Assembly: GCA_945631445.1 (NCBI GenBank)
Contig: CALZCR010000005.1
Location: forward strand, 1 to 18,382
Reading direction: 5' to 3'
Length of the DNA stretch: 18,382 nt
From: an uncultured Corynebacterium sp.
GTDB taxonomy: Bacteria > Actinomycetota > Actinomycetes > Mycobacteriales > Mycobacteriaceae
The translations under genes and the position numbers were made by a program. Each line of letters starts with the position of its first letter. The stretch's first letter is position 1. Below are positions 7,510 to 17,875 of this stretch, in pieces. Under the pieces are notes generated by a model. The model was not told the origin of the DNA and made no database searches. It saw only the letters and a program-made list of their open reading frames with translations.

Positions 7510-8016
7510 TTACTCGAGCGCACTGATCCAGGCGGCCGCGGCGGCGACGATCTCGTCGGGGGTGCCGGAAATGTCGAAGATCCGGCCGGTCTCGTCGGCG
7601 CCGAGGTGCTCCAGGGTGTCCAGCTGGGAGTCGAGCAGGCTGGGCGGCATGAAATGCCCCGGGCGATCCGTCATGCGTTCTTGCAGAAGCTCGGCGCTGC
7701 CGTGCACGTGGACGAACACGGCGCCGGGGGCGGCTTCGCGGATGGCGTCACGGTAGGAGCGCTTGAGCGCGCTGCACCCGATGATGCCGCCGGCGGGGTG
7801 CTCCGTGAGCCATTCGCCGACGAGCTTCAGCCACGGCCACCGGTCCTCATCGGTCAACGGCTCACCGGCGGCCATCTTGTCGATGTTGGACTGCGGGTGC
7901 AGGTCATCGCCGTCGTGGTACGGCAGGCCGATGCGGGCGCCGAGGAGATCACCGACCGTGGATTTACCGGAGCCGGAGACACCCATGACGACGATGTGGC
8001 GAGGGGATTGAGACAT
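7510..8016 (-). CDS. gntK: Gluconokinase, GntK/IdnK type
   Basis: The 168-residue kinase phosphorylates D-gluconate to 6-phosphogluconate for the pentose phosphate pathway. The P-loop is GVSGSGKST at residues 12-20, followed by the family blocks HDGDDLHPQSNIDKMAAG, PLTDEDRWPWL and CSALKRSYRDAIR. The start chosen is ATG at 8016 (MSQSPRH), with AGAAAAG and AAGGAAG upstream. The frame, however, is open without a stop back to GTG 8724, so a longer product of 404 residues with the mannonate-dehydratase-like remnant at its N-terminus is possible. Gluconokinase alone is the normal family length, and the internal site looks functional, so either or both forms could be made. Confidence 0.93.
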   Translation of the reverse strand: MSQSPRHIVVMGVSGSGKSTVGDLLGARIGLPYHDGDDLHPQSNIDKMAAGEPLTDEDRWPWLKLVGEWLTEHPAGGIIGCSALKRSYRDAIREAAPGAVFVHVHGSAELLQERMTDRPGHFMPPSLLDSQLDTLEHLGADETGRIFDISGTPDEIVAAAAAWISALE

Positions 8017-8724
8017 GGTCTTTTCTGCTTCCTTGTGCGTGAACGAATGCATGCGGTGCTGGTGGAGACGGACTCCCAAACCGGGGCCTGCGCCGGGGTA
8101 CAGCCGCCCGGAGCGGAGGGTGTGGGAAGGCTCTAAGGCCGTGAGCAGCGGGCCGGTGTGCGGCCGGTATTCTTGCGGCCCGGCGTTCGGGGTGCTCACG
8201 CCCAGGTGGACGAGGGCGGCCCGGCCCACGGGAGAGACCCAGGGCGGGTTCCGGAATACGACGCTCGCCCCGTCCTCGGCGGCCTGGTCCGCGAGTGCGC
8301 GGGCCGCGGTGACGCCGCCGACCTCCGCCAGGGAAAACCGCCGGTCGGCGGGAAGCGCGCGGGGCAACTCGTCGTCCAGGACGGGGACGCTGGGGCGGAA
8401 CGCGCCGCCGAGGAGTTCGTAGAGGGGGCGGCCCGCTTGCCGGGCCCGCAGATCCCACAGGGCGACGTCGACGGCCGCGTGCGCGGCCCGTGCGACCGCA
8501 GTGGCCGGAGGGCTGCGCTGCAGGCGCTGCTGCGCCTGCAGCGCAGGTGCGCCGACGAGGTCGGCGAGGCGACGGCGGAGATGGTCGGCGACGAGGAGTT
8601 CCCGTCCTCCCAGCGCAACGTCGCCGAGGCCGGTGGCGCCGTCGCCCGCCGTGAGCCGCAGCGTCAGGAAGCGCCGCTCGTCGGTGAAGACGAAGACGTC
8701 GGCGGCGACGATGGCGGCGGTCAC
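8017..8724 (-). pseudogene. Internally deleted mannonate/gluconate dehydratase-like (RspA/ManD) ORF, in frame with gntK
   Basis: These 236 codons keep both ends of an enolase-superfamily RspA/ManD protein. The N-terminal capping domain covers residues 1-107 (VFVFTDERRFLTLRL, GATGLGDVALGGREL, AAVDVALWDLRA, RPLYELLGG), and the last barrel part covers about 131-218 (LAEVGGVTAARALADQA, VSPVGRAALVHL, TPNAGPQEYRPHT, YPGAGPGLGV). The 150-170 residues with the metal ligands are missing, and the region aligned with the conserved barrel histidine reads VVFRNPPWVSPV, so that histidine is lost. The usual tail after GLGV is also gone; the frame runs straight into gntK. GTG at 8724 has AAGGAGAG 8-10 bases upstream. 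Catalysis is unlikely. It could be a decaying gene or a retained N-terminal extension of the kinase. Confidence 0.75.
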
Positions 8725-8790
8725 GGTCTGAGCTCTCCTTGTCGGTGAATGAAAGTGTGCGGCGGCGTGGTCCACGCCAGCCCCTTCACT

Positions 8791-8883: not shown

Positions 8884-10986
8884 TCAGCTGCGCGGCGGCA
8901 CGTTCTCCGGGTACTTCGAGCGGTACATCTCCACGATCAGCTCGGCGACCTGCTTGTAGGTGGTCGAGGCGGTGTTGATGACCAGGTCGTATTCCTCGTC
9001 CACGTTCGGGTCCCACTTGTAGAGTTTCCGGCTCATCTCCGCGCGCAGGCGATCCTCGATCTCGCACTGCTCGGCCGCCTCGGAGGCGGACAACCCGGCC
9101 TTATACATGACGCGTTCGATGCGTTTGTCCAGCGGGGCGATCAGGCGCACGTGCAGCGTGCCGACGACCGGCCCCAGCACCAGGGCGCCGTTGCGCCCCA
9201 GCAGGACGCCGCCGTTTTCTGCGTCCGCGAGCACGCTCTTGGTGTTGTCCTGGGCGATCTGGTGGTTCGACGCGGTGTCCATGGCCGCGGCCATGTCCGT
9301 GTTCTGCGAACCGGAGTAGGACAGGTTGCGCATCCACCGGTTGAAGCCGGAGTCGGACAACAAGGTCGTGCGGTCCGCCTGCGCCAGCGTCTGCGAGCTG
9401 AATTGCTGCCCGATGTAGGGCACCTGGAGCAGCTCGGCGACCATCGGGCTGATGTCCGTGGCGCCGGAACCGCGTTGGCCGAAGATCGTGACGATCGGCG
9501 GGTTCGGGGTGCCCGGGCGGCGCATCAGCGTCGTGCGGCCGTCGCCCAGGTCCGCCTCGCCGACCAGGGTGCGCTCCGCGTCCACGCCCTTGGCTCCGGC
9601 GATGGCGTCTTGAGTGCGGCGTTGTGTCAGGTCTTCGACGACTTGCATGTGGGTGGTGCTGTCCAGGCGGTAGAACATCACGGAGATCATGGCGGCCAGC
9701 GCCAGGATCGCGGGGATGGCGCCGGTGGCCACGCGCAAGCCCATGGCCACGGTCGATCCTTCCAGGACCGCCACGCCGGCGGCGTAGCCGAAGATTCCGA
9801 TCACGAAGCCGCCGACCCAGCCGCCGATGCCCTGGCCGACTTTGCGGGTGAACGAGAGGATGGAGTAGGAGCCGCCCTCGGAGCGGATGCCGGTCTTCCA
9901 CTCGCCGTAGTCGACGGTGTCCGCCTGCATGGAAAACATCATCGCGTTCGAGCCGCCGACGCCCAGGCCGACGATGAACCAGGCGACCAGGGCGATGGAT
10001 AAGGTGCCGCCGGGGATGAAGAAGATCATGGCGTAGCCGACCGCGGCCAACAAGGCGGCGAGCATGTAGCCGTTGCGTTTGCCGTAACGCCGCGTGATGG
10101 CCGGGGCGAAGGAGGCGAAGAAGATCATGCCGATGGTCTGCGCCAGCTGCAGGAAAGCGAAGTAGGCGGCGTTGCCGGTGATCGCGCGCACGTAGTACAA
10201 ACCCACGGCGTTGAACACGAAGTTCGAGGTGAGAAACAGCAAAGCGGTGAGCAGCAGGATCTGCAGCGGGCGGTTCTGGCGCAGCATCTTGAAGGTCTGC
10301 CGGAAGGAAATGCGGCCGGCGGCGCGCGGGACGACTTCCCGGGAATTGGCGAAGCAGATCAGGTACAAGATGATCGCGATGACCGCCAAGACGATGCAGG
10401 TGATCATGAACTGCAGGCGGATGCCGTCGCCCTGGGTGTCCTCGAACTGCGGGGCGACGACCCAGGCCAGGGCGACCGACGCCAGCGACGAGGCGATGGC
10501 GCGGGAGCCGGAGAGCTTGGAGCGGTCCACCGGGTCTTGGGTCATCGCCGAGGCCAACGAGCCGTAGGGGATGTTGACGAAGGAGTACGCCAGCTGGAAC
10601 AGCGCGTCGAAAATGAAGATCCAGGCGATCGCCGCGACCTCGTCCAACCCCGCCGGGGTGGAGAACAGCGCGACGAAGAAGACGGCCAGGGGCGCGGGAC
10701 CGAAGAGCAGGTAGGGCCGCAGTCGACCCCACCGGCTGTTGGTCTTGTCGACGACGTTGCCGGCAATCAGGTCGGCGAAACCGGCCCAGATCTTCGTGAC
10801 GCCGTAGATGGCGCCGGCCACGGCCGCGGACAACCCGACGATGTCGGTCATGTAGACCATCAAAAACATCGACGTCATCATGAACGACAGGTTGTTTCCG
10901 ACGTCGCCGAGCGAATAGGTCAGCACCCGATGACTCGGCATGTTGCCCGCGGGCGCGGAGGCCTTCGGGGTAGTGGTGGTGGACAC
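8884..10986 (-). CDS. GPH-family sugar:cation symporter fused to a cytidylate-kinase-like domain
   Basis: The 700-residue membrane protein has two parts. Residues 17-445 are a 12-helix glycoside-pentoside-hexuronide symporter with DKTNSRWGRLRPYLL (80-94) and MQADTVDYGEWKTGIRSEG (353-371). After a hydrophilic linker, residues 497-692 form a cytosolic Cmk2-type (cytidylate kinase-like) P-loop domain: IVTIFGQRGSGATDI with the loop at 503-512, GGVLLGRNGALVL (592-604), APLDKRIERVM (617-627) and YDLVINTAST (666-675). The frame is continuous, so this is a true fusion as read. GTG at 10986 is chosen because GAGGAGG ends 5 bases upstream. It follows uxuB with a 138-bp gap, so glucuronate or a glucuronide is the likely substrate. 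Some GPH carriers (LacS) carry a regulatory EIIA domain at this same end; a regulatory role for the kinase-like domain is inferred by analogy. Confidence 0.9.
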   Translation of the reverse strand: MSTTTTPKASAPAGNMPSHRVLTYSLGDVGNNLSFMMTSMFLMVYMTDIVGLSAAVAGAIYGVTKIWAGFADLIAGNVVDKTNSRWGRLRPYLLFGPAPLAVFFVALFSTPAGLDEVAAIAWIFIFDALFQLAYSFVNIPYGSLASAMTQDPVDRSKLSGSRAIASSLASVALAWVVAPQFEDTQGDGIRLQFMITCIVLAVIAIILYLICFANSREVVPRAAGRISFRQTFKMLRQNRPLQILLLTALLFLTSNFVFNAVGLYYVRAITGNAAYFAFLQLAQTIGMIFFASFAPAITRRYGKRNGYMLAALLAAVGYAMIFFIPGGTLSIALVAWFIVGLGVGGSNAMMFSMQADTVDYGEWKTGIRSEGGSYSILSFTRKVGQGIGGWVGGFVIGIFGYAAGVAVLEGSTVAMGLRVATGAIPAILALAAMISVMFYRLDSTTHMQVVEDLTQRRTQDAIAGAKGVDAERTLVGEADLGDGRTTLMRRPGTPNPPIVTIFGQRGSGATDISPMVAELLQVPYIGQQFSSQTLAQADRTTLLSDSGFNRWMRNLSYSGSQNTDMAAAMDTASNHQIAQDNTKSVLADAENGGVLLGRNGALVLGPVVGTLHVRLIAPLDKRIERVMYKAGLSASEAAEQCEIEDRLRAEMSRKLYKWDPNVDEEYDLVINTASTTYKQVAELIVEMYRSKYPENVPPRS

Positions 10987-10991
10987 GGTTT

Positions 10992-11020
10992 CCTCCTCGG
11001 GGAAAACCAAGGGGAGGAGG
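10992..11020 (-). promoter_or_regulatory. Hairpin masking the transporter ribosome-binding site
   Basis: On the minus strand CCTCCTC (11020-11014) pairs perfectly with GAGGAGG (10998-10992), which is the Shine-Dalgarno sequence of the transporter, with a 15-base loop. If formed, it blocks initiation at GTG 10986. Confidence 0.5.
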
Positions 11021-11124: not shown

Positions 11125-12528
11125 TTAACCCCGCAAAGCGGCGACGTGGGTGCGGATCCGGTCGACGGCCTCCGCATCCCCCGCCAGCCCCAGATCGAGG
11201 GTGGTCACCAGCGCCGCCACCGGGTCATCCAACTGGCGGGCGCCGTCGAGTTCCATGGCGCGGGTGTCGGCGATCTCGTGGGAGGCGCCGTCGCGCAGCA
11301 GGAAAGCGATCCAACCCGCGATGGAGAAGGCCGCCGCGTCGCCCGTGCGCCCGGCGGCCAGCTCCGCCTTCATGATCGGCACCGCGCGCATGCGCTGCTT
11401 GGTGCCGCCGTCGACGGCGATCTGGGCGAGGTTGTGCCGGATGCGCGGATTCTCGAAACGCTCGATCAGGCTGGCCCGGTACTCCGGCACCTTCAGCTCC
11501 GGGGCGGTCAGGTGCCGCTCCGCCTCGTCCCAGAGGGCCTCGACGCGGGCACGGACCTGCTCGTCGCCGATGGCCTCGGCGACGGTGTCATGCCCGCGCA
11601 GCTGCCCGTAGTAGGCCATCAACGAGTGCGAACCGTTGAGCAGCCACAGCTTGCGGCGCTCGAAGTCCTCGATGTCGTCGACGAATTCCACGCCTGCGCG
11701 CTCCCACTCGGGCCGGCCCGCCGGGAACTCGCCCGCGATCACCCAGGAGGCGAAGGGTTCGGTGACCACGGGGGCGGCGTCTATGTGGCCGGTCTGCTTC
11801 TCGACGTCCGCGGCCAGCTGCTCGTCCGTGGCCGGGGTAATGCGGTCGATCGAGGTCGACGGGAAACTCACCTCGCTCTCGATCCACTCGGCCAGATCCG
11901 GGTTGAGCTCGCGGGCCAACCCGATGACCGACGCCTGGGTCAACCGGCCGTTGTCCGCGACGTTGTCGCAGCTCATGACCGCCACCGGGCCCGCGTCGCG
12001 CAAGCGGCGCGCCGCCAGGCCGAGCACCAGCTTGCCGGCCGCGGTGACCAGCGGTCGGTCAAAACCGAAGGGGTCGCCGACCGCCTCCTGCAGGGTCGCG
12101 GCGTCCGCCTGGACGTCGGGGCTGTCGACGTCGAGGGAGCCGTCGTCACGCAAGTGGTAGCCGGCCTCCGTGACGGTGAGGGTGACCACCGCGATCTGCG
12201 GATCGCTGAGCAGGTCCACCAGCCGGGTGGTGTTCGCCGCGTACGCCGGTTCGACCAGGGAGGTGATCAGCTCGTAGTCGTCGCCGGCGCCGGAGCGGGT
12301 GACCAAGGTGAACAACCCGTCCTGGTCTCCCAGGATATTCGCCATCCGGGGGCTGCGGCCGGTGAAAGACGCGTAGCCCCACCGCGGGTTGTCCGGATCC
12401 TGCTCGGACTGCTGGGTGTACCAGACCTGGTGCGCGCGGTGGAAAGCGCCCAGCCCCAAGTGCACCAGGCGGATCGGCGGGGTCGGGGTGTCTTTGGTGC
12501 GGGTCAATGCGTTGGTGTCGGTGCTCAT
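11125..12528 (-). CDS. uxuB: Mannitol dehydrogenase family protein, probable fructuronate reductase
   Basis: This 467-residue NAD(P)-dependent polyol dehydrogenase probably reduces D-fructuronate to D-mannonate. The nucleotide-binding start is LVHLGLGAFHRAHQ (21-34), SCDNVADNG is at 186-194, and the catalytic pattern K-x4-N-x2-H is Lys293, Asn298 and His301 in RKLWLLNGSHSLMAY. The family also contains mannitol 2-dehydrogenase and tagaturonate reductase; fructuronate reductase is preferred because its ATG overlaps the uxaC stop (ATGA, 12525-12528), which means translational coupling in one operon. The length is normal for the family. An in-frame extension upstream to 12786 runs through uxaC antisense-free coding in another frame and is not a real N-terminus. 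Confidence 0.9.
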   Translation of the reverse strand: MSTDTNALTRTKDTPTPPIRLVHLGLGAFHRAHQVWYTQQSEQDPDNPRWGYASFTGRSPRMANILGDQDGLFTLVTRSGAGDDYELITSLVEPAYAANTTRLVDLLSDPQIAVVTLTVTEAGYHLRDDGSLDVDSPDVQADAATLQEAVGDPFGFDRPLVTAAGKLVLGLAARRLRDAGPVAVMSCDNVADNGRLTQASVIGLARELNPDLAEWIESEVSFPSTSIDRITPATDEQLAADVEKQTGHIDAAPVVTEPFASWVIAGEFPAGRPEWERAGVEFVDDIEDFERRKLWLLNGSHSLMAYYGQLRGHDTVAEAIGDEQVRARVEALWDEAERHLTAPELKVPEYRASLIERFENPRIRHNLAQIAVDGGTKQRMRAVPIMKAELAAGRTGDAAAFSIAGWIAFLLRDGASHEIADTRAMELDGARQLDDPVAALVTTLDLGLAGDAEAVDRIRTHVAALRG

Positions 12529-13931
12529 AGCTTGAAAACCCTCCTCGGGGAAGCGTCGATCAAATCGACGATGACGTCGGCGGCGCGGTCCTCGGTCAAC
12601 CGGTGCTCGGCGACCAGGCGGGCCAGGTAACCGGCCTCCACGCGGCGCGAGGTGTTGTGGCGCGCCGGGATGGAGCAGTAGGCCCGGGTGTCGTCGATGA
12701 ATCCGGAGTAGCGGGAGAAACCGGTGGTGCCGGTGGTGTAGGAGCGGAAGCGGCTCATGGCGTCGATCTCGTCGATGAACCACCACGGCGCGCCCGCGTA
12801 GACGGACGGATAGTAGCCGGCCAGCGGGGCGATTTCGCGGGAAAAGGTGGTTTCGTCGATGGTGAAGACGACGAAGTGGAAGTCCTTGTTCTCGCCGAAG
12901 TCGCTGAGCAGCGGCTGCAGCGAGCGGGTGAACTCCATCTGGAACGGGATGTCGTGGCCGACGTCGGCGCCGAACTTCTTAAAGGCGCTGGTGGAGTGGT
13001 TGCGGTACACGCCCGGGTGCAGGGTCATGACCAGGCCGTCGTCCTGGCTCATCTCCGCGAAGCGGTAGGTCATGTTCGCCTCGAAGGCCAGGGCTTCTTC
13101 GAAGGTGGCCTCGCCGCGCATCCCTTTGTCCAGCAGACGCTGGGCCTCGGCGTCGCTCAGCGGGGTGGTCGCCGCGTCGTGGGTGCCGTGGTCGGAGGAG
13201 GTGGCGCCGTGGTCGAGGAAGTATTGGCGGCGGTTGCGCATCGCGGCCAGATACCCCTGGTAGCCGGTCTGGCCGTCGCCGGCGACCTCGATGAGCTTGG
13301 CCACGTTGTCGGCGAACTCCGGTTTGTACATTTTGGTGTAGGCGTCCGGGCGGAAAGTCGGCAGCACGCGCGGGGTAAACGTCGGGTCTTCGGCCAACGC
13401 CTTGTGGTGCGCCAGATCGTCCAGCGGGTCGTCGGTGGTGGCCAGCACCTCGAGGTTGAAGTCCTCGGCCAGGGCGCGCGGGCGGAAATCCGGGCGGGCG
13501 AGGATCTCAGTGAGCTCGTCGTAGATGGCGTCGGCGTTGTCCGCGGAGATGCGGTCCGGGTTGATCTGGAAGACGTGCTCGAATTCCTGCTCCACCCAGT
13601 AACCGGTGGCGGTGCCGGCGTAGAGGTGCCAGTGCGAGCAGAAGATCCGCCACGCCTGGCGCGGGTCGGCCTCGTGGCCGCCGACGCCCAGGTCGGCCAG
13701 ATCCACGCCGGCGGTGTGTAGCACGCGGGTCAGGTAATGGTCGGGGCTGATCAACAGCGCCGTGGGGTTGGGGAAAGGCTCGTCGGCGGTGAACATCGCC
13801 GGATCCAGGTGCCCGTGCGGGGAGATGATCGGCAGATCCTCCACGTGCGCGAGCAATCGGCGGGCGATGTCGCGGGTGCTGGGATCCGCGGGCAACAGGC
13901 GGTCTGGGTGAGCTGCGTGTGAAGTACTCAT
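12525..13931 (-). CDS. uxaC: Uronate (glucuronate) isomerase
   Basis: The 468-residue amidohydrolase-superfamily enzyme interconverts D-glucuronate and D-fructuronate (also galacturonate and tagaturonate), the first step of intracellular hexuronate breakdown. The N-terminal metal motif SPHGHLDP (37-44, with His39 and His41), the middle block TLHPGVYRNHSTSAFKKFG and the late block YYPSVYAGAPWWFID are all characteristic. The length is as in the family, with no disruptions. ATG at 13931 (MSTSHAAHP) is chosen; the open frame extends to 14000 but those residues look unrelated and cross the promoter. It overlaps uxuB by 4 bp, and the -10 sits 6 bases before the start, suggesting a leaderless mRNA. 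Confidence 0.93.
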   Translation of the reverse strand: MSTSHAAHPDRLLPADPSTRDIARRLLAHVEDLPIISPHGHLDPAMFTADEPFPNPTALLISPDHYLTRVLHTAGVDLADLGVGGHEADPRQAWRIFCSHWHLYAGTATGYWVEQEFEHVFQINPDRISADNADAIYDELTEILARPDFRPRALAEDFNLEVLATTDDPLDDLAHHKALAEDPTFTPRVLPTFRPDAYTKMYKPEFADNVAKLIEVAGDGQTGYQGYLAAMRNRRQYFLDHGATSSDHGTHDAATTPLSDAEAQRLLDKGMRGEATFEEALAFEANMTYRFAEMSQDDGLVMTLHPGVYRNHSTSAFKKFGADVGHDIPFQMEFTRSLQPLLSDFGENKDFHFVVFTIDETTFSREIAPLAGYYPSVYAGAPWWFIDEIDAMSRFRSYTTGTTGFSRYSGFIDDTRAYCSIPARHNTSRRVEAGYLARLVAEHRLTEDRAADVIVDLIDASPRRVFKL

Positions 13932-14596: not shown

Positions 14597-15358
14597 CTAC
14601 GCCCAGTCCGACACCGAGTCGATGAGCACCGCCCGCATCTGCGCCTGCCATCTCGGACCCCACGTCAGACGGCGCACGCCCAGCGACCGCAACGTCTCCC
14701 GGTCGGCCGGGGCGTCGTCGACGGGGTCGACAGTGACGTTGACCGGCACGTCGGTGGAGGCGACGAGACGGCGGATCAGATCTGGCTGGGTGGCGGCGAC
14801 CGGGTACACCGCGCGGGCGCCGGCCTCCACCATCGCCTGGATGCGGCGGGTGGCCTCGCCCTCCGGATCCTCGAACTCCGCGGTGCCGTGCTTCAGGGCG
14901 TCGGTGCGACCGTTGATGACCAGCTCCACCTCCTGCCGGTCCGCCTCCGCGCGCACGGCGGCGATGTAGTCGGCGTGTTCGGTCAGGGTGCGCACGCGCT
15001 TGCCCTCGCGGTGGACGGTGTCCTCGATGTTCAGGCCCACGGCGCCGACGGCGATGACCTGACGGGCCAACTCCGCGCCCGGCAACCCGTAGCCGGACTC
15101 CACGTCGACGGAGACCGGGACGTCCACGGAATCGACGATGCGACGCGTGATCGCCAGATACTGGCCGAAGTCCATGGCCTCCCCGTCCTCGGCGCCGATG
15201 GCGTCGGCCACCGGGTGCGAACCGATGGTCAGCCCCTTGAAACCGGCGTCGACGCACAACCGGGCGCTCCAGACGTCCCACACGGTGGGCAACACCAGCA
15301 TTTCGCCGGAGGTGTGGGCGGCGGCGAAATCCTTGGCTAGTTCACGATTGACGGTCAT
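14597..15358 (-). CDS. Isocitrate lyase/PEP mutase family protein
   Basis: The 253-residue protein has the PEP mutase/isocitrate lyase barrel: LPTVWDVWSARLCVDAGFKGLTIGS at the start, metal-site SVDVESGYG with Asp85 and Glu87, then VGLNIEDTVH (Glu112, Asp113) and ELVINGRTDAL. Members cleave or rearrange C-C or P-C bonds of small 2-oxo or dicarboxylic acids. The K-K-C-G-H loop of isocitrate and methylisocitrate lyases is absent (EDTVHREGKRVRTL instead), so those activities are unlikely; the substrate is unknown. The start at 15358 (MTVNREL) has AGGAGG 9 bases upstream, while the ATG at 15367 has that AGGAGG touching it. It follows the LacI gene by 54 bp on the same strand and is probably co-transcribed. 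Confidence 0.88.
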   Translation of the reverse strand: MTVNRELAKDFAAAHTSGEMLVLPTVWDVWSARLCVDAGFKGLTIGSHPVADAIGAEDGEAMDFGQYLAITRRIVDSVDVPVSVDVESGYGLPGAELARQVIAVGAVGLNIEDTVHREGKRVRTLTEHADYIAAVRAEADRQEVELVINGRTDALKHGTAEFEDPEGEATRRIQAMVEAGARAVYPVAATQPDLIRRLVASTDVPVNVTVDPVDDAPADRETLRSLGVRRLTWGPRWQAQMRAVLIDSVSDWA

Positions 15359-15412
15359 GATGGGCATCCTCCTGGAATACGGCGTGCATGGCGGGACTGG
15401 GAAAAACGTCCC

Positions 15413-16528
15413 TCACTCATCCATCGTGGCAGAACACGCCCGCCGGGTGGAGGACTCCCGCACGATCAACCGCGCGGGCAGCACCCGCGGCTTCGACAAC
15501 GGGCTGTCCAACCCGCGGGCCAGCGCCATGACGTTGGCGGCGGCGACACGCCCGACGGCGCGCAGGGGACCCGAGTCCGTCGTCAAGGAAGGACGGTGCA
15601 CCCCGGCCAGGTCTGTGTCGTCGAACCCGACGATCAACAGATCTTCCGGCGCAGTCACCCCGGCGCGCCGGGCCTGGTCGAGGAAGCCGACCGCGACTAA
15701 GTCGTTGAAGCAGATCACCGCGTCCGTCGGCTGGGTCCGCCACACTTCGAAGGCCCGGCGTCCGCCGCGGATGGTGGGCTGGTCCACGTGCCGTTGGCGC
15801 ACGGTCATGCGCGTCAGTTGTTGGGCTTGTTCCGCCGACAGGGCGGCGGCCCGAGTGAGCACCGTGGGGCTGTCGGCGGGGTCGGTGGCGCCCGCCACGT
15901 CCAGCAGCGCCCGCCAGCGCACCGCGTCCGACCAGGAGTCGGCGGGGCCGGACAGGTAGGTGATCGAGCGGGCGCCTTGGTCGTGGAGGTGCGCCGCCGC
16001 GCGGACCATGCCGTCGTAGTCGTCGACCAGCACGCTCGGCACGCCGGGCACGGGCCGGTTGACGGACACGGTGGGCACGCGCCGCGCGATCTTTTGGATT
16101 TCCCCGCCGCTCAACCGGGTAGAGACCAGGATCAGGCCGTCGACCAGCGGGATCATTCTTTCAATGGCGGCGTGGGTTCGGGGCACGGATTCTTGGACGT
16201 CGGCGGTGAGCACCACCATGTCGCCGACGCGGGCGGCGTGTTCCGCTCCGTGCCACACCTCTTGGAAGAAGGGGTTGGCCATGTCGGCGAGCACGAGTCC
16301 GAGGGTGTTGGTCGCCGGGTTGGGTTTGGGGCGGGTGTCCAGGCGGCGGCCGTAGCCGAGTTCTTCCGCGGCGTCCCGGATTGCGGCGGCGGTGCGGCCG
16401 GAAACCCGGTCGGGCCGGCTGAAGGCCCGCGACACGGTCGAGGCGGACACCCCGGCCCGGTGGGCGACGTCGTAGATGGTCACGGGTGAGGACGTGGGTG
16501 GGGCTGGCCGCGGGTTCGACTCCGACAT
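15413..16528 (-). CDS. LacI-family transcriptional regulator
   Basis: The 371-residue regulator has an N-terminal LacI HTH at residues 17-42 (VTIYDVAHRAGVSASTVSRAF), a hinge helix (AAAIRDAAEELGYG), then a periplasmic-binding-protein-like sensor domain from about 75 (NTLGLVLADMANPFFQEVWHG) to the end, including CFNDLVAVGFLDQARRAGV and LIVGFDDTDLAG. Such proteins repress catabolic genes until a sugar or sugar acid binds, so uxaC-uxuB, the transporter and the adjacent lyase-like gene are candidate targets; this is context only. ATG at 16528 is chosen; TACCCT lies 7 bases before it, suggesting a leaderless mRNA. The open frame continues upstream across the antisense of glsA, which is an artefact. 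Confidence 0.92.
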   Translation of the reverse strand: MSESNPRPAPPTSSPVTIYDVAHRAGVSASTVSRAFSRPDRVSGRTAAAIRDAAEELGYGRRLDTRPKPNPATNTLGLVLADMANPFFQEVWHGAEHAARVGDMVVLTADVQESVPRTHAAIERMIPLVDGLILVSTRLSGGEIQKIARRVPTVSVNRPVPGVPSVLVDDYDGMVRAAAHLHDQGARSITYLSGPADSWSDAVRWRALLDVAGATDPADSPTVLTRAAALSAEQAQQLTRMTVRQRHVDQPTIRGGRRAFEVWRTQPTDAVICFNDLVAVGFLDQARRAGVTAPEDLLIVGFDDTDLAGVHRPSLTTDSGPLRAVGRVAAANVMALARGLDSPLSKPRVLPARLIVRESSTRRACSATMDE

Positions 16529-16624: not shown

Positions 16625-17875
16625 GTGCACAACTTGATCGCCGACTACTTGGAGGAGATCCTTGACGAGGTCCGGGACCACGCGGCCGGGGAGATCCCGA
16701 CCTACATCAGTTCCCTGACCAAGGCGGACCCGGAGTGGCTGGGCATCGCCATGTGCACCACCTCCGGGCGCGTCTACGAGGCGGGCGACACTGATGTCTC
16801 GTTCACGATCCAGTCGGTGTCCAAGCCCTTCATCTATGCTCTGGCCCTCCAGGAGTGCGGGTTGGAGCGGGTGCTGGACGTCGCGGGGATGGAGCCCTCC
16901 GGTGAGGCGTTCAATGAGCTCTCCCTCCGGGAGGAGGACAAACGCCCCCTCAACCCCATGATCAACGCCGGCGCCATCGCGGTGAACCAGTTGATCAACG
17001 GCGAGGAGTCCCCCGTGGCGGACCGTGTCGAGGTCATCCTCGACTTCATGTCCCGGCTGGCGGGCCGGCCGTTGGAGCTGGACGAGGAATCCGCCGTCGA
17101 CGAGCTCGAGAAAGCCGACCGCAACCTCTCCATCGCGCACATGTTGCGCAGCCACGACGTCATCGTCGACGCGGCCCACGACGCGGTGGACAGCTACACC
17201 CGCCAGTGTTCGGCTTTGGTCACTCTCCGCGATCTGGCGGTGATGTCGGGCACTTTGGCCAACGGCGGCGTCCAACCGGTGACGGGGGAGAAGCTGCTGG
17301 ATCCGGAGGTGTGCCGGCAGACGCTGTCGGTGATGAGCTCCTGCGGCATGTATGACGCGGCCGGCCGGTGGATGGCGCGCGTGGGCATCCCGGCCAAGTC
17401 CGGCGTCTCCGGCGGGTTGATCGGCACCCTGCCCGGGCAGCTGGGCATCGCGACGCTGTCTCCGCGCCTGGATCCGGCCGGCAATTCCGTCCGCGGCGTC
17501 GACGTCTTCGAGAACTTGTCGACGGACATGGGGTTGCACTTGATGTCCACCGAGCACCGCACGGGTTCCCACGCGGTGCGTTCCGTCGACCGCAGCGGCG
17601 AGGACACCATCATCACGCTGCAGGGCGTGGTGACCTTCACCGCCGCCGAAGAGATCTTGCACAAGCTCAACAGCCTGGATTTCGTCTCTGAGCGCGTCGT
17701 CTTGGACGTCAGCCGCGTCATCGATTCGCATTCGATGGGGCGGCGCATGCTCAAGGAGCAGCTGCAGCGCATCCGGGAGGCCGGCTACGACATCGCGGTG
17801 GTGGATCCGGACGCGGAGCTGCGCGGGCGCCAGCTTTCCGACGGTTCGCAGATCCCGCTGGCCCAAGACCTGTAG
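16625..17875 (+). CDS. glsA: Glutaminase with C-terminal STAS domain
   Basis: This 416-residue cytosolic enzyme hydrolyses L-glutamine to glutamate and ammonia. The serine-beta-lactamase-like glutaminase domain covers about residues 1-310, with the catalytic S-x-x-K motif Ser64-Val-Ser-Lys67 (FTIQSVSKPFIY), then NPMINAGAIAV and GVSGGLIGTLPGQLGIA. From about 325 a STAS domain follows (TIITLQGVVTFTAAEEIL, VVLDVSRVIDSHSMGRRML, AGYDIAVVDPD); STAS domains bind partners or nucleotides and can be serine-phosphorylated, so it is probably regulatory. Glutaminases with C-terminal STAS domains are known in actinobacteria. GTG at 16625 has AGGGAGGA about 10 bases upstream. It diverges from lacI with 96 bp between. 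Confidence 0.94.
   Translation: MHNLIADYLEEILDEVRDHAAGEIPTYISSLTKADPEWLGIAMCTTSGRVYEAGDTDVSFTIQSVSKPFIYALALQECGLERVLDVAGMEPSGEAFNELSLREEDKRPLNPMINAGAIAVNQLINGEESPVADRVEVILDFMSRLAGRPLELDEESAVDELEKADRNLSIAHMLRSHDVIVDAAHDAVDSYTRQCSALVTLRDLAVMSGTLANGGVQPVTGEKLLDPEVCRQTLSVMSSCGMYDAAGRWMARVGIPAKSGVSGGLIGTLPGQLGIATLSPRLDPAGNSVRGVDVFENLSTDMGLHLMSTEHRTGSHAVRSVDRSGEDTIITLQGVVTFTAAEEILHKLNSLDFVSERVVLDVSRVIDSHSMGRRMLKEQLQRIREAGYDIAVVDPDAELRGRQLSDGSQIPLAQDL

Follow-up and report, generated by a model that had tools for sequence, protein, structure and literature searches.

The control of carriers once they have been made is less understood than the control of their genes. One described case is LacS, a GPH carrier regulated by a fused EIIA-like domain, and sensor domains of the CBS, cyclic-nucleotide-binding, PAS, UspA and EIIA-like types recur as fusions on carriers, as given in the main text of PMC10710835. 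Another described relative is the GusB/UidB carrier (NF007353, GPH family TC 2.A.2). In the window analysed here, i.e., the whole stretch of 18,382 nucleotides (positions 1 to 18,382 of contig CALZCR010000005.1, assembly GCA_945631445.1) from an uncultured Corynebacterium sp., one gene encodes a GPH carrier continued by a C-terminal Cmk2 domain (Cytidylate_kin2, PF13189); where LacS carries its EIIA domain, a cytidine monophosphate (CMP) kinase fold takes that place. The relatives of the fusion are, like GusB/UidB, linked to beta-glucuronidase and glucuronate isomerase, whereas about 250 extra C-terminal residues distinguish the fusion protein from GusB/UidB. Sequence, predicted fold and genomic context suggest, at about even confidence, that the added part is a non-catalytic, ligand-sensing cytosolic domain which modulates a proton-coupled glucuronide importer.

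The coordinates 8884..10986 proposed by the sequence-only reading are correct; the strand, which went unmentioned there, is the minus one, since the plus-strand reading of this interval contains a stop and the 700 codons are open on the minus strand (Table 1). The proposed union of symporter, linker and Cmk2 domain in one frame was confirmed. Both Pfam families named for checking it were matched: PF13347 at residues 24-442 with 288.7 bits (cut-off 27), and PF13189 at residues 498-673 with 109.6 bits, above the gathering cut-off and over positions 1-175 of a 176-position profile, with a CMP-kinase-like predicted fold. All four quoted Cmk2 motifs were found in the protein. The linker exists as well, with a length of about 54 residues (443-496) instead of 50, and is the least conserved part (0.52 vs 0.78 for the transmembrane (TM) bundle).

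An assembly join or frameshift artefact is ruled out by the fusion being present in one frame in 22 of 201 Corynebacterium genomes, in 17 of these on contigs >2 Mb. In the two-contig genome G406, a 2.8-Mb contig bears a copy with 97% identity. Broken copies were found in two genus genomes (G462 and G404), which together with the 22 whole genes make up the 24 genus loci compared below, and a C-terminal remnant alone remains in G434. A database search in which 8000 candidates were scored gave 618 matches, and both domains are present in all of the best 120, the ones listed. In a second homolog listing, 79 of the 80 matches listed are GPH-Cmk2 proteins. The architecture is thus present in relatives, the absence of which had been named as grounds for refuting it; among the matches listed, fusion homologs occur in Corynebacterium, Tessaracoccus, Knoellia, Ornithinimicrobium, Trueperella and others. 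C. glutamicum, an organism used in the laboratory, has a natural copy (P0031), and direct testing is therefore possible. In a further database protein, P0123 (37 member sequences), the front of UxaC runs into the end of the Cmk2 domain/carrier gene; it was considered as an independent UxaC-Cmk2 fusion and rejected, being read as an in-frame deletion across the cluster.

The carrier half matches the GPH:cation symporter model TIGR00792 with 355.5 bits, above the cut-off of 231.35, and its predicted fold is MelB-like. Its best NCBIfam match is GusB (NF007353) with 438 bits, under the equivalog cut-off of 528, which makes it GusB-like by context, outside the formal GusB equivalog. An alignment of 63 GPH-Cmk2 proteins, hand-picked from the 120 listed homologs, was used to follow the MelB residues D19, D55, D59 and D124. 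In 63/63 fusion homologs the D55 position is Ala (A68) and, differently from MelB, the D19 and D124 positions are Asn; the D59 position is kept, and D72 and K382 are retained in the carrier. Because the D59 position is kept while the D55 position is Ala throughout, coupling would be by proton rather than by sodium. No EIIA family was matched in the fusion protein by Pfam at E 0.001.

The genomic context points to the substrate. UxaC is present in 24/24 fusion genomes compared with 30/201 overall (Fisher p 8e-26, kinship ignored), and UxaC, UxuB, carrier and GntK stand together in 23 of the 24 genus loci, with a LacI-family gene upstream in 22. In the exception, G008, UxaC is encoded at another place and a GH3 gene is close to the carrier. 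A beta-glucuronidase gene is inserted in 11/24 clusters (as a two-piece match in G462) and full-length ManD in 8/24; the equivalog cut-offs are exceeded by GusA in L010 and by ManD in L012. The linkage to uronate genes that had been claimed from this one locus, and for which a survey had been proposed, is therefore borne out, and the suggested hexuronate or glucuronide substrate gains support from the inserted beta-glucuronidase and from GusB as the best, if sub-threshold, NCBIfam match. Since the fusion sits with UxaC, UxuB and GntK in nearly every genus locus, the carrier most likely imports glucuronides/hexuronates. Outside the genus, UxaC and UxuB of the window had no match in the examined flank of any of six loci. 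A GH3 glycosidase gene adjoins the carrier in L014 and L017, and an alpha/beta hydrolase gene in L013; nothing clear was seen at the one neighbour examined in each of L015 and L019, and the L018 locus is incomplete. The Cmk2 domain is kept where the carrier adjoins a GH3 gene and not uxaC (L014, L017, L125), i.e., the domain persists although the neighbouring genes change.

The Cmk2 half has kept Arg/Asp residues of the pocket and lost the catalytic lysine. Among the 63 GPH-fused domains the Walker lysine column contains 57 Ala, 4 Gly and 2 Val, so the missing lysine of the sequence-only reading is confirmed (0/63 with K), and the Walker A lysine of a canonical cytidylate kinase is replaced in every case. 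The canonical family PF02224 gave no match in the fusion protein in Pfam at E 0.001, and a separate canonical cytidylate kinase is encoded elsewhere in the genome (G000:C168, PF02224 241.7 bits). G506, I512, N599, R622, R625, R648, D667 and N671 are invariant in the 63 fusion proteins, with R598 in 62/63, and G506, V594, G597, R598, R622, D645, R648 and Y666 are invariant across 38 Cmk2 domains, both fused and free. R648 is also Arg in 104 of 105 other Cmk2 domains. All of these 105 have Gly, Ala or Ser at the lysine position, a count biased by the search pattern, which admitted only these residues; by eye, the 13 of 118 Cmk2 proteins missed by that pattern have no lysine there. The P-loop of the GPH-fused group is mostly G[SA]GA[ST], that of other Cytidylate_kin2 domains GSGG[RH]. 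Structure comparison with the full-length model showed the carrier alone, and the Cmk2 domain was therefore folded and compared separately. The resulting model matches CMP kinases solved with CMP or cytidine diphosphate (CDP), in agreement with the nucleotide-pocket fold whose absence had been named as a refutation. The PF13189 structures 3hdt and 3fdi, titled just 'putative kinase' and 'uncharacterized protein', share the family and fold of the fused domain. The ratio of nonsynonymous to synonymous substitution rates (NG86), quoted for the closest pair (window gene vs G406) because several other pairs are near saturation, is 0.053 in the Cmk2 domain, 0.059 in the carrier and 0.084 in the linker. 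Carrier and Cmk2 half are under equally strong selection. With the residue roles of CMP kinases assumed to apply, the kept phosphate-binding residues and the lost lysine would point to a binding domain more than to an enzyme.

Two other explanations of the domain have to be weighed against these residues. It could be an active small-molecule kinase whose substrate is a nucleotide or the imported sugar, with other residues replacing the lysine and phosphorylation coupled to transport. This is unlikely: the lysine is absent in 63/63 GPH-fused domains, the cluster already contains GntK (23/24), carriers with a GH3 neighbour still have the domain, and it occurs both with intact ManD (8/24 clusters) and without, so it does not fill a ManD gap. 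For the same reason, the domain as a replacement for a missing mannonate dehydratase was rejected. The earlier suggestion that it acts on the incoming uronate is likewise weakened by the loss of the catalytic lysine, by its persistence beside GH3 genes and by homologous domains on unrelated transporters. Alternatively, the domain could be a structural or assembly module without ligand, serving oligomerisation, folding, carrier stability or the tethering of UxaC/UxuB. The lost lysine, the poorly conserved nucleoside monophosphate (NMP)-binding segment and the persistence of the domain with the cluster within the genus would suit such a module; however, the phosphate-binding-position residues G506, R598, R622 and R648 are among the most conserved and the same cluster is served by unfused homologs, and it is regarded as rather improbable.

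Cmk2 domains of this kind are not restricted to GPH carriers. A total of 118 Cmk2 proteins was found: 109 with DUF6198, 2 with MATE, 1 with MFS, 1 with TerC and 5 with PF13189 alone; these shares are not frequencies, because the query was the Cmk2 domain of a DUF6198 fusion. Pfam was repeated for the four odd (MATE, MFS and TerC) fusions. Some frames that score weakly against PF13189, 750-814 aa in length, may be Cmk-Der fusions. As in the GPH fusion, the Cmk2 domain follows the membrane protein in one chain; the membrane parts, however, are unrelated or distantly related to GPH, and the Cmk2 domains lie in a separate clade. In a 53-row Cmk2 tree, midpoint-rooted and with long-branch warnings, the domains fused to GPH group together (100/96), the nearest row to them being the free Cmk2 of G088 (100/98), and the DUF6198, MATE, MFS and TerC domains form another group with long branches. 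The separate groups and the unrelated membrane parts indicate that Cmk2 was fused to membrane proteins on more than one occasion. Inspected by eye, 19 of 52 Cmk2 loci are fused to a transporter or lie within 100 bp of one on the same strand (6 MFS, 2 KdpC, 9 ABC permease and 2 DUF6198; Pfam identity for 9, the rest by similar sequence), a post hoc count with no matched control in which all 9 ABC cases come from one family (f54). MFS and free Cmk2 genes overlap by 1 bp in L143 (5486-7740) and L200 (5397-7243), and in the potassium-pump clusters of L150 and L151 a free Cmk2 gene stands directly after kdpC and before a gene which we take to be kdpD-like.

The preferred reading is a GusB-like glucuronide/hexuronide:cation symporter with a C-terminal, cytosolic and catalytically degenerate CMP-kinase-fold module. 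The ligand of the Cmk2 domain would be a nucleotide or phosphorylated sugar in the cytosol, and the signal may pass via the linker helix (443-466), altering the activity of the carrier. The mode of action could resemble that of EIIA in LacS, though fold and signal differ. Several observations weigh against it. In G429, G461 and G469 the cluster contains an unfused GPH carrier (36-38% identity) instead, and the Cmk2 domain is therefore dispensable for a working cluster. These three are among six UxaC-positive genus genomes that lack the fusion; in the other three, G364, G472 and G498, no such unfused carrier was found, and G515 has fused and unfused carriers in tandem. In the carrier tree a 100/100 branch separates 19 fused from 4 unfused rows; when distant rows serve as outgroup, the unfused carriers fall inside the fused set beside L125 (82/82), on an untrusted branch 4.6 changes long, so that the tree does not show whether the carrier gained or lost the domain. 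The pocket is also looser in the 105 other Cmk2 domains, where R622 is 88 Arg and 15 Lys, and D645 is 89 Asp and 12 Glu. The NMP-binding segment of CMP kinases (535-580) is the weakest of the domain, with a conservation of 0.57 and a low predicted local distance difference test (pLDDT) score, and for this reason the ligand cannot be named. Enrichment of membrane genes beside Cmk2 is weak: in a survey of 52 Cmk2 loci, with crude TM counts of same-strand neighbours compared with the other genes of the same loci, neighbours with at least 3 TM segments numbered 13/52 vs 58/442, with at least 5, 7/52 vs 19/442, and with at least 6, 5/52 vs 18/442; a first script, which also counted fused membrane parts, gave 7/52 vs 35/329.

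Free-standing Cmk2 genes in uronate clusters belong to the same side of the balance. In G088 the free gene lies between uxuB, 21 bp away, and a GH3 gene, and a GPH carrier was not found in this genome (96% complete, 960 contigs); in G083, outside the genus, the distance from it to a downstream beta-glucuronidase gene is 22 bp (L142, 8730-11202). Being free-standing, these domains cannot gate in cis. They link Cmk2 to glucuronide use where no carrier is fused to it, and weigh against a purely cis-gating role. Both loci, together with the position of the G088 domain as the nearest row to the GPH-fused group under midpoint rooting, would suit a pathway-level regulator that responds to a metabolite and acts on enzymes or on the repressor; the free arrangement would then be the older one. 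These are two cases in all, however, G088 may be a fission product, and the covalent link is retained in 22 genus genomes; such a regulator is considered quite improbable.

The remaining genes of the cluster in the window are given in Table 1. The UxuB label of the reductase rests on gene context and no equivalog cut-off was reached: the best NCBIfam match is D-arabinitol dehydrogenase with 279 bits (cut-off 600), and fructuronate reductase PRK15037 scored 244.8 (cut-off 603). The manD gene is a remnant from which residues 115-258 are gone, running in frame into gntK; no ManD match was found at the corresponding place in G406, the closest genome. Full-length ManD is missing from 13 genomes with the UxaC-UxuB-carrier-GntK cluster, including L109, L111 and L112 (G406, G486 and G450): the window's own has the remnant, 10 have partial matches of 25-30% and 2 have none. 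UxuA was not found in the 4 of these genomes examined, which makes for an apparent hole in the pathway at mannonate. The PEP-mutase-family gene was matched in just L109 and L130 among 28 cluster loci compared.

Table 1. Features of the window, with positions counted from its first letter (PEP, phosphoenolpyruvate; AF2, AlphaFold2).
Feature	Position	Strand	Remarks
GPH-Cmk2 fusion gene	8884..10986	minus	700 aa, GTG start at 10986, one open frame
Putative ribosome-binding site GAGGAGG	10992..10998	minus	read from sequence
GPH/MelB-type carrier	9661..10929	minus	residues 20-442, read as 12 membrane helices
Linker helix (443-466) and loop	9499..9660	minus	residues 443-496, AF2 model
Cmk2 (CMP-kinase-fold) domain	8908..9498	minus	residues 497-693
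P-loop position GQRGSGATDI	9451..9480	minus	residues 503-512, Ala509 in place of Walker lysine
UxaC glucuronate isomerase	12525..13931	minus	NF002794 602.2 bits, cut-off 387; 4-bp overlap with reductase gene
UxuB-like reductase, mannitol dehydrogenase family	11125..12528	minus	PF01232 and PF08125
GntK-type gluconokinase	7510..8016	minus	TIGR01313 181.9 bits, cut-off 113.75, scored on joint frame 7510-8772
Internally deleted manD, in frame with gntK	8020..8772	minus	aligns to intact ManD residues 3-114 and 259-394 only
PEP-mutase/isocitrate-lyase family protein	14597..15367	minus	PF13714 200.8 bits
LacI-family regulator	15413..16528	minus	PF00356, PF13377
Glutaminase with C-terminal STAS-like domain	16625..17875	plus	

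The architecture itself is already visible in protein databases, and regulatory carrier fusions are a known kind, with LacS and others. Among the papers listed in literature searches, none has a title or abstract start on a GPH-Cmk2 fusion, although two mention a cytidylate-kinase-like protein and a paper on C-terminal MFS fusions (Willson et al. 2019) may list the architecture; the word cytidylate is absent from the main text of PMC10710835, and terms for the fusion were not found in the main text of PMC7806268. Several fusion entries are named 'cytidylate kinase family protein' in databases, a name that conceals a sugar importer and could be replaced by a better annotation. Summarizing, it is possible, as a tentative proposal, that Cmk2 is a hitherto unrecognised plug-in regulatory transporter domain attached separately to GPH, DUF6198, MATE, MFS and TerC proteins, which in Corynebacterium and relatives gates glucuronide uptake by reading a cytosolic nucleotide or phosphorylated sugar. 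If this is true, several unrelated transporters would have recruited one degenerate nucleotide-kinase fold, which would represent an additional type of sensor.
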